Of a DNA stretch of 64,000 bases, positions 12,885 to 13,245 are shown piece by piece; the first letter of the stretch is position 1; every line of letters starts with the position of its first letter. The notes under the pieces were generated by a model. That model did no database searches. It was given only the letters and a program-made list of their open reading frames with translations, and had not been told where the DNA came from. A program made the translations under genes and the position numbers. This DNA is from Candidatus Bathyarchaeota archaeon (GTDB lineage Archaea > Thermoproteota > Bathyarchaeia > Bathyarchaeales > Bathycorpusculaceae), in the NCBI GenBank assembly GCA_026014685.1, contig JAOZHW010000005.1, forward strand, positions 186,001 through 250,000, in the 5' to 3' direction.

Positions 12885-13063
12885 CCCTCTCCCTTTTTCC
12901 CCGTTTTTTAGACAAAATTGTTTTTTGTTTGGGTTTAACCTCAAGTTTAAGCCCCCACTTTTGGTTGCTGAACGGTTATATTTTTATTGATGCCCGCTCA
13001 ATTATTGCTCCGACTAGACCACGGTGGGGTCGTAGTCTAGACAGGTATGACGACGGGCTCCAG

Positions 13064-13132
13064 AAAGCAGACACACACGGGTTTGCTGACTCCGCGAGGA
13101 GAATGACGAATCTCTGGAGCGGTCATAGAGAA
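13064..13132 (+). ncRNA. tRNA-Trp intron 1 with box C/D guide features
   Basis: The intron has a box D (CTGA, 13086-13089) preceded by ACGGGTTT, which is complementary to AAACCCGT (13131-13138). The base five positions before box D pairs with C39 of the tRNA. A C'-like TGACGA (13104-13109) precedes TCTGGAGC (13113-13120), complementary to GCTCCAGA around the anticodon; the position that would be methylated is C34 if GTCA at 13122-13125 serves as a degenerate D' box. Introns of euryarchaeal tRNA-Trp are known to guide 2'-O-methylation of residues 34 and 39, so this fits an established role. The assignment here is from pairing only. Confidence 0.65.
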
Positions 13133-13138
13133 ACCCGT

Positions 13139-13168
13139 AAACGGCCGCTTCGCGCGGCTGTTGGGTAA
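13139..13168 (+). other. Second tRNA-Trp intron, predicted at position 43/44
   Basis: Flanking bases fold as a relaxed bulge-helix motif: ACCC (13133-13136) pairs with GGGT (13163-13166), bulges GTA and AAA hold the cut sites, and the intron itself forms a 9-bp stem (AACGGCCGC with GCGGCTGTT). Cutting inside the bulges leaves CCCGT joined to AGGTC, which is exactly a standard anticodon stem and variable loop. Non-canonical tRNA introns are known in several archaeal lineages. Confidence 0.65.
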
Positions 13169-13245
13169 AGGTCGTCGGTTCAAATCCGGCCGGCCCCACC
13201 AAACTTTTTAACCAAAAAGGTCAATCAAAGATAATTTCATTTTTT

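Follow-up and report, generated by a model that had tools for sequence, protein, structure and literature searches.

The locus at positions 13026 to 13201 of the forward strand raises the question of whether a segment passed over by standard searches is a working tRNA-Trp gene, and what its introns do. Neither ARAGORN nor the Rfam tRNA model at its gathering threshold found the gene in the window (the whole 64,000-nucleotide stretch of DNA that was analyzed), and relaxing the Rfam threshold returned spurious matches to tRNA ends only. The organization of the gene, with its introns, accounts for both tools missing this essential gene. It is the sole tRNA-Trp gene found in a 2.32-Mb, 99%-complete Bathyarchaeia genome, in which BLAST detected one copy. 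Judged by a linked protein, this genome stands nearest to Candidatus Bathyarchaeota and Bathycorpusculum. Judging from its sequence, the segment is very likely a working tRNA-Trp(CCA) gene with two spliced introns, the first of which would descend from the archaeal tRNA-Trp box C/D guide intron and would guide modification of C39 on the precursor; its action on C34 is uncertain. For comparison, 72 tRNA-Trp genes were parsed from a family set of 91 genomes, and the whole comparison covered about 140 related genes.

Exons and the intron at 43/44

All features described here lie on the forward strand. Exon 1 (nucleotides 1 to 37; 13026 to 13063) carries the anticodon CCA at 13060 to 13062 and ends with G37 at 13063. 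Exon 2 (nucleotides 38 to 43, ACCCGU; 13133 to 13138) contains C39 at 13134, and its bases 13134 to 13138 pair with 13053 to 13057 in the mature tRNA. Exon 3 (nucleotides 44 to 76; 13169 to 13201) encodes the terminal CCA and was delimited from the ARAGORN call on the spliced sequence. When both introns were removed, ARAGORN called tRNA-Trp(cca) with all cloverleaf pairs intact; exon 1 is conserved in the 72 relatives. No tRNA was called by ARAGORN when either intron was retained. The first-pass annotation, which placed two introns at 37/38 and 43/44 with these coordinates, was therefore right. The pre-tRNA folded better than shuffled sequences (z = -2.85), and its minimum-energy fold contained the intron-2 motif as drawn in that annotation. 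Upstream of the gene, an AT-rich TATA-like stretch at 12973 to 12990, read directly from the sequence, is a possible archaeal promoter. A similar stretch precedes the related copy L135.

Intron 2 occupies 13139 to 13168, and its proposed length of 30 nucleotides and relaxed splicing motif were borne out. The motif consists of a central helix (ACCC/GGGU) formed by A38 to C41 with 13163 to 13166, 3-nucleotide bulges (GU|A and AA|A) and an inner helix between 13140 to 13148 and 13154 to 13162; it is classed as a relaxed bulge-helix-bulge because one flanking helix is missing. The intron is present in 58 of the 72 family genes and absent from 14. Every insert shares a GU|A bulge (G42-C43 in two genes), GGG opposite C39 to C41 and a second bulge of AA|A or AT|A. 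The innermost three pairs of the inner helix were formed in all 55 distinct introns through A-U, G-C, G-U and C-G exchanges. Among the naturally intron-less alleles, four read CCCGT|AGGTC, the exact joined product predicted for this gene, and most others read CCCAT|TGGTC or CCCGT|TGGTC. These alleles, with AGGTC in four, agree with the earlier prediction that the cuts yield a normal variable loop.

Two other readings of the locus were weighed against these data, and we regard both as very improbable. The 43/44 stretch forms a stable hairpin, as would a long variable arm retained in the mature tRNA. However, relatives precisely lacking the stretch exist, the sequences on either side of it build a relaxed splicing motif that 58 genes retain, and the variable loop of archaeal tRNA-Trp is short. 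That the segment is a decayed copy is comparably remote: decayed or fragmentary copies do occur in relatives (L128 and L135), but here BLAST found one copy only, although the genome is 99% complete, and this copy retains intact cloverleaf pairs and conserved guide pairs. In its own right, L128 (genome G041) was found to be a decayed tRNA-Trp copy with intron remnants still present. On contig 22 of genome G016, at about 5 to 10 kb, three copies or fragments (L012, L134, and L135) lie within 5 kb; one has two introns, one is a single-intron gene without the C39 guide and one is a 5' fragment.

Guide elements of the 37/38 intron

Intron 1 (69 nucleotides, 13064 to 13132) interrupts all 72 family genes at the same position and measures 60 to 71 nucleotides in 71 of them. 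Near its 5' end, the antisense element ACGGGUUU (13077 to 13084) pairs with 13131 to 13138 over the 3' splice junction. It ends one base short of a box D' CUGA at 13086 to 13089 (CUGA in 39 of the 72 genes, CGGA in 28), so that the partner of C39 is the fifth base upstream of the box. In box C/D guides, the methylation target lies opposite the fifth base upstream of the box. The guide, its CUGA or CGGA box and the N+5 spacing were all retained in 67 of the 72 genes, which upholds the earlier assignment of C39 as a target five bases before box D. Box D' is linked to box C' by a capped K-turn stem (CUCC-GCGA-GGAG, 13090 to 13101), in which 93.8% of cells were paired with 25 two-sided changes, a value not reached in any of 500 shuffles. 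Box C' itself (AUGACGA, 13103 to 13109; consensus RUGANGA) had also been recognized correctly: RUGA[C/A/U].. was found in all 64 script-matched genes, and [AG]TGACGA was seen by eye in the other 8.

Covariation of the guide-target helix was tested on 34 diverse genes with 500 shuffles and slid controls. Paired cells amounted to 97.1%, and the covariation score was matched neither by shuffling nor by sliding. Since 67 of the 72 genes keep the register and the guide-target pairs covary, the C39 guide is not a chance match. The base of the guide opposite the last nucleotide of intron 1 is U facing A in 57 genes and A facing U in 11, so that all 68 genes keeping the motif form this pair; in the wider phylum, guide C faces G (L230 and L234) and guide G faces C (L232). 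This covarying nucleotide is absent from the mature tRNA, and the duplex therefore forms on the unspliced precursor. It should be noted that the A/T exchange corresponds to about four events on the tRNA tree, too few for the independent-pairs test to reach significance. The C39 guide was lost in three genes (L131, L133, and L134) and carries a mismatch in L108, and it is therefore dispensable. All the same, we infer with strong support from the sequence comparison that intron 1 would guide 2'-O-methylation of C39.

Two observations concern the 5' part of this intron. An inverted repeat, AGCAGAC...GUUUGCU, spans 13067 to 13087, with GCAAAC...GUUUGC in most relatives, and could fold into a hairpin that hides the C39 guide. 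In L131 (genome G044), an 88-nucleotide intron 1 carries a remodeled guide region, AATGGGAG, before TCGA; the match to C39 is gone, and the region may be aimed at another target.

The second antisense element, UCUGGAGC (13113 to 13120), is complementary to 13057 to 13064, which starts at G31 and ends with the initial nucleotide of intron 1, and would aim at C34. It spans the 5' splice junction and ranks with the best-conserved parts of the intron, reading TTCTGGAGC or CTCTGGAGC in 57 of 64 genes. It also tracks changes in its target: the second intron base of L093 is G with C opposite, and A37 in L265 to L267 is matched by U. The first-pass annotation had proposed C34 as a guided position; the conserved antisense favors this, but the boxes do not. 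A search upstream of the first antisense, with up to one mismatch allowed, found a terminal box C in none of the 72 genes, and none was seen by eye over the junction of the circular intron. The slot five bases from the C34 partner reads GUCA, GUCU, GUUA or GUAG instead of box D. In the window it is GUCA (13122 to 13125), probably not a working box D; across the 72 genes, GTCA occurs in 29, GTCT in 15, GTTA in 8 and GTAG in 8, with other variants and never CTGA. The annotation had named this GTCA a degenerate D' box, which holds for its degeneracy but not for its place, as it occupies the terminal box D slot.

Four Archaeoglobaceae tRNA-Trp introns, used as controls for the terminal motif, share the same design and have all four boxes, including terminal box C, at homologous places. 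The terminal motif has therefore been eroded in the present lineage. With terminal box C missing and the box D slot degenerate in all 72 genes, the canonical two-motif guide RNP is incomplete, which makes C34 methylation uncertain; from sequence, C34 guidance appears doubtful.

How much of this conservation reflects guided methylation can be judged by considering less demanding explanations. If the pairings were purely structural or served as splicing aids, loss of the C39 guide in some genes would be easily understood, and the passage of PMC7714728 that refers to Joardar 2008 describes the tRNA-Trp intron as dispensable in Haloferax. Splicing alone, however, gives no reason for an exact N+5 spacing to a conserved CUGA or CGGA accompanied by box C' and a K-turn stem. 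This signature of methylation guidance persists in 67 of 72 genes and phylum-wide; we hence consider the structural explanation unlikely. Evenly balanced, in our estimation, is the proposal that only C39 is guided. It agrees with the main reading except on C34: the C34 antisense would be a protective helix on the anticodon and 5' splice site, or a relic, and any Cm34 would come from another guide or enzyme. The complete lack of terminal box C, a box D slot that is never CUGA and the presence of the 8-bp antisense helix in the most stable precursor fold agree with it. Against it, the antisense is highly conserved and follows target changes (L093 and L265 to L267), and the tRNA-Trp of Sulfolobus acidocaldarius has Cm34 (PMC7668247), although the Sulfolobales-like introns in our comparison also lack the terminal motif.

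Competing pairings and processing enzymes

The anticodon stem, the guide and the splicing helix of intron 2 compete for bases 38 to 41 of exon 2. Each of the three pairings draws on bases from positions 38 to 43, includes C39 to C41 and excludes the other two. Since bases 38 to 41 can pair with one partner at a time, methylation and the two splicing events would have to take place in turn.

Folded as a whole, the precursor reached its energy minimum (-73.0 kcal/mol) with the intron-2 motif and the anticodon-antisense helix formed together. Imposing the C39 guide duplex on it cost 3.8 kcal/mol and imposing the anticodon stem cost 6.8 kcal/mol; with intron 2 removed, the respective costs fell to 0.9 and 2.6 kcal/mol, all values deriving from one-strand folding without proteins, in which differences between competing folds are small. 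This modeling suggests an order in which intron 2 leaves first, C39 is then methylated and intron 1 leaves last.

The central helix of intron 1 would pair AGAG (13127 to 13130) with C32 to C35 (13058 to 13061). Paired cells amounted to 79%, and no covariation was detected in this helix. Its CUC/GAG core was seen when the anticodon stem was imposed, and after removal of intron 2, it arose unforced with that stem. With CUC/GAG plus a mismatch and no inner helix, intron 1 does not conform to the strict bulge-helix-bulge (4-bp central helix, 3-nucleotide bulges and two flanking helices).

In the literature, relaxed motifs are associated with endonucleases of the alpha-beta or epsilon type (PMC4090602 and PMC12397907). 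Two PF01974 proteins, one catalytic and one noncatalytic, are encoded in the genome, as in an alpha-beta splicing endonuclease. The former resembles the catalytic subunits of Aeropyrum and Sulfolobus, matching 3p1z_B at 7.4e-38 with the GPG[V/I]-[E/D]-HAP motif, its catalytic His and, in the lineage-specific loop, the Lys (the Lys equivalence being read from the alignment); in the latter, the catalytic His is replaced. The predicted enzyme is thus similar to the crenarchaeal alpha-beta endonucleases (PDB 3p1z and 3ajv from Aeropyrum pernix; 2zyz) in its catalytic motif and its second, His-less subunit, and would be suited to relaxed motifs. Fibrillarin and Nop5 genes lie near each other on contig 5, and L7Ae-family and RtcB genes are present in the same genome.

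We therefore envisage the following scheme. The internal D'/C' K-turn on the unspliced precursor would presumably bind L7Ae, Nop5, and fibrillarin, and the bound RNP would place ACGGGUUU on the 3' exon-intron junction, such that C39 could be 2'-O-methylated five bases from box D'. The second antisense would still pair with the anticodon over the 5' junction. Intron 2 would behave as an ordinary small archaeal intron, cut by the alpha-beta endonuclease after U43 and before A44, with methylation and the two splicing steps following one after another. Extending this scheme to evolution, we tentatively propose, as a possibility short of an even chance, that the guide of Bathyarchaeia and of a large part of Thermoproteota was pared down to one motif acting in cis on position 39, and that a later 43/44 intron captured its target bases as a splicing helix. 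If so, the six-base exon would be the site of an obligatory relay in which the guide RNP, intron-2 splicing and intron-1 splicing act in a fixed order.

Distribution and known systems

A covariance model of the guide intron matched 194 of 251 genomes of the class and 198 of 398 genomes drawn from the phylum. Introns were counted by alignment at 70 loci matched by the model, mostly outside the family set, and roughly two-thirds had at least one further intron, a few of these counts being alignment artifacts. The combination of a guide with an extra intron is therefore common, and guide introns occur with one to four extra introns across Bathyarchaeia and Nitrososphaeria. This contradicts the suggestion in the first-pass annotation that a second noncanonical intron beside the guide is unusual; it is the rule in the family (58 of 72) and frequent in the phylum. 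That annotation correctly regarded guide introns as established in Euryarchaeota; the present genome belongs to Bathyarchaeia (Thermoproteota), a group in which this guide intron is widespread too.

Several relatives have more elaborate arrangements. Five introns, after mature nucleotides 10, 29, 38, 46, and 57, were predicted in L223 (G091 contig 13, 25480 to 25790) and L228 (G097 contig 1, 398660 to 398980). Intron duplication is suggested in L223, where introns 1 and 4 have almost the same sequence, each preceded by exon GTAG and each complementary to intron 2 (TTGGCGGA/TCCGCCAA). Four introns including the guide intron were predicted in L221 and L225, and three in L118, where an extra intron near 25/26 accompanies the guide intron. 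The Nitrososphaeria loci L265 to L268 combine a guide-type 37/38 intron with an anticodon-stem intron; they have lost the C39 guide and retain D', C' and the C34 antisense, with the A37-U match in L265 to L267.

These findings carry the textbook euryarchaeal guide intron over to many Bathyarchaeia and to further Thermoproteota, and the base pair exchanges show the unspliced precursor to be the substrate. Natural pairs of genes with and without intron 2, and with and without the guide, provide material on the order of methylation and splicing. A literature search, with most subscription journals outside its reach, found no paper on the Bathyarchaeia case.

A box C/D guide intron in euryarchaeal pre-tRNA-Trp (Pyrococcus sR50 and Haloferax volcanii) was reportedly described by Omer in 2000, Clouet d'Orval in 2001, Bortolin in 2003 and Singh in 2004. 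Like it, intron 1 lies at 37/38 and carries an antisense to position 39 before D', a K-turn box C' and an antisense to position 34 after C'; in the window, both antisense duplexes span exon-intron junctions. C39 was already predicted as a target for P. furiosus (PMC7668247). Unlike the euryarchaeal intron, the one described here has lost terminal box C, has a degenerate box D and a capped stem joining D' to C', shows a relaxed splice motif and is accompanied by a second intron. In its short extra intron at a noncanonical position with a relaxed motif, the gene resembles the multi-intron tRNAs of Crenarchaeota, Thaumarchaeota, and Asgard archaea (PMC8450103, PMC4390854, and PMC11291895), the first two of which have an alpha-beta endonuclease (PMC4090602). 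Multi-intron archaeal tRNAs have long been known, with a reported ceiling of three introns per tRNA (PMC4390854 and PMC8450103), whereas some relatives described here are predicted to have four or five. In contrast to those tRNAs, the central helix of the extra intron here uses the target bases of the neighboring intron's guide. By these features, intron 1 is a reduced homolog of the known tRNA-Trp guide intron, predicted to work like it and joined by an added intron that uses the guide's target in its splicing helix.
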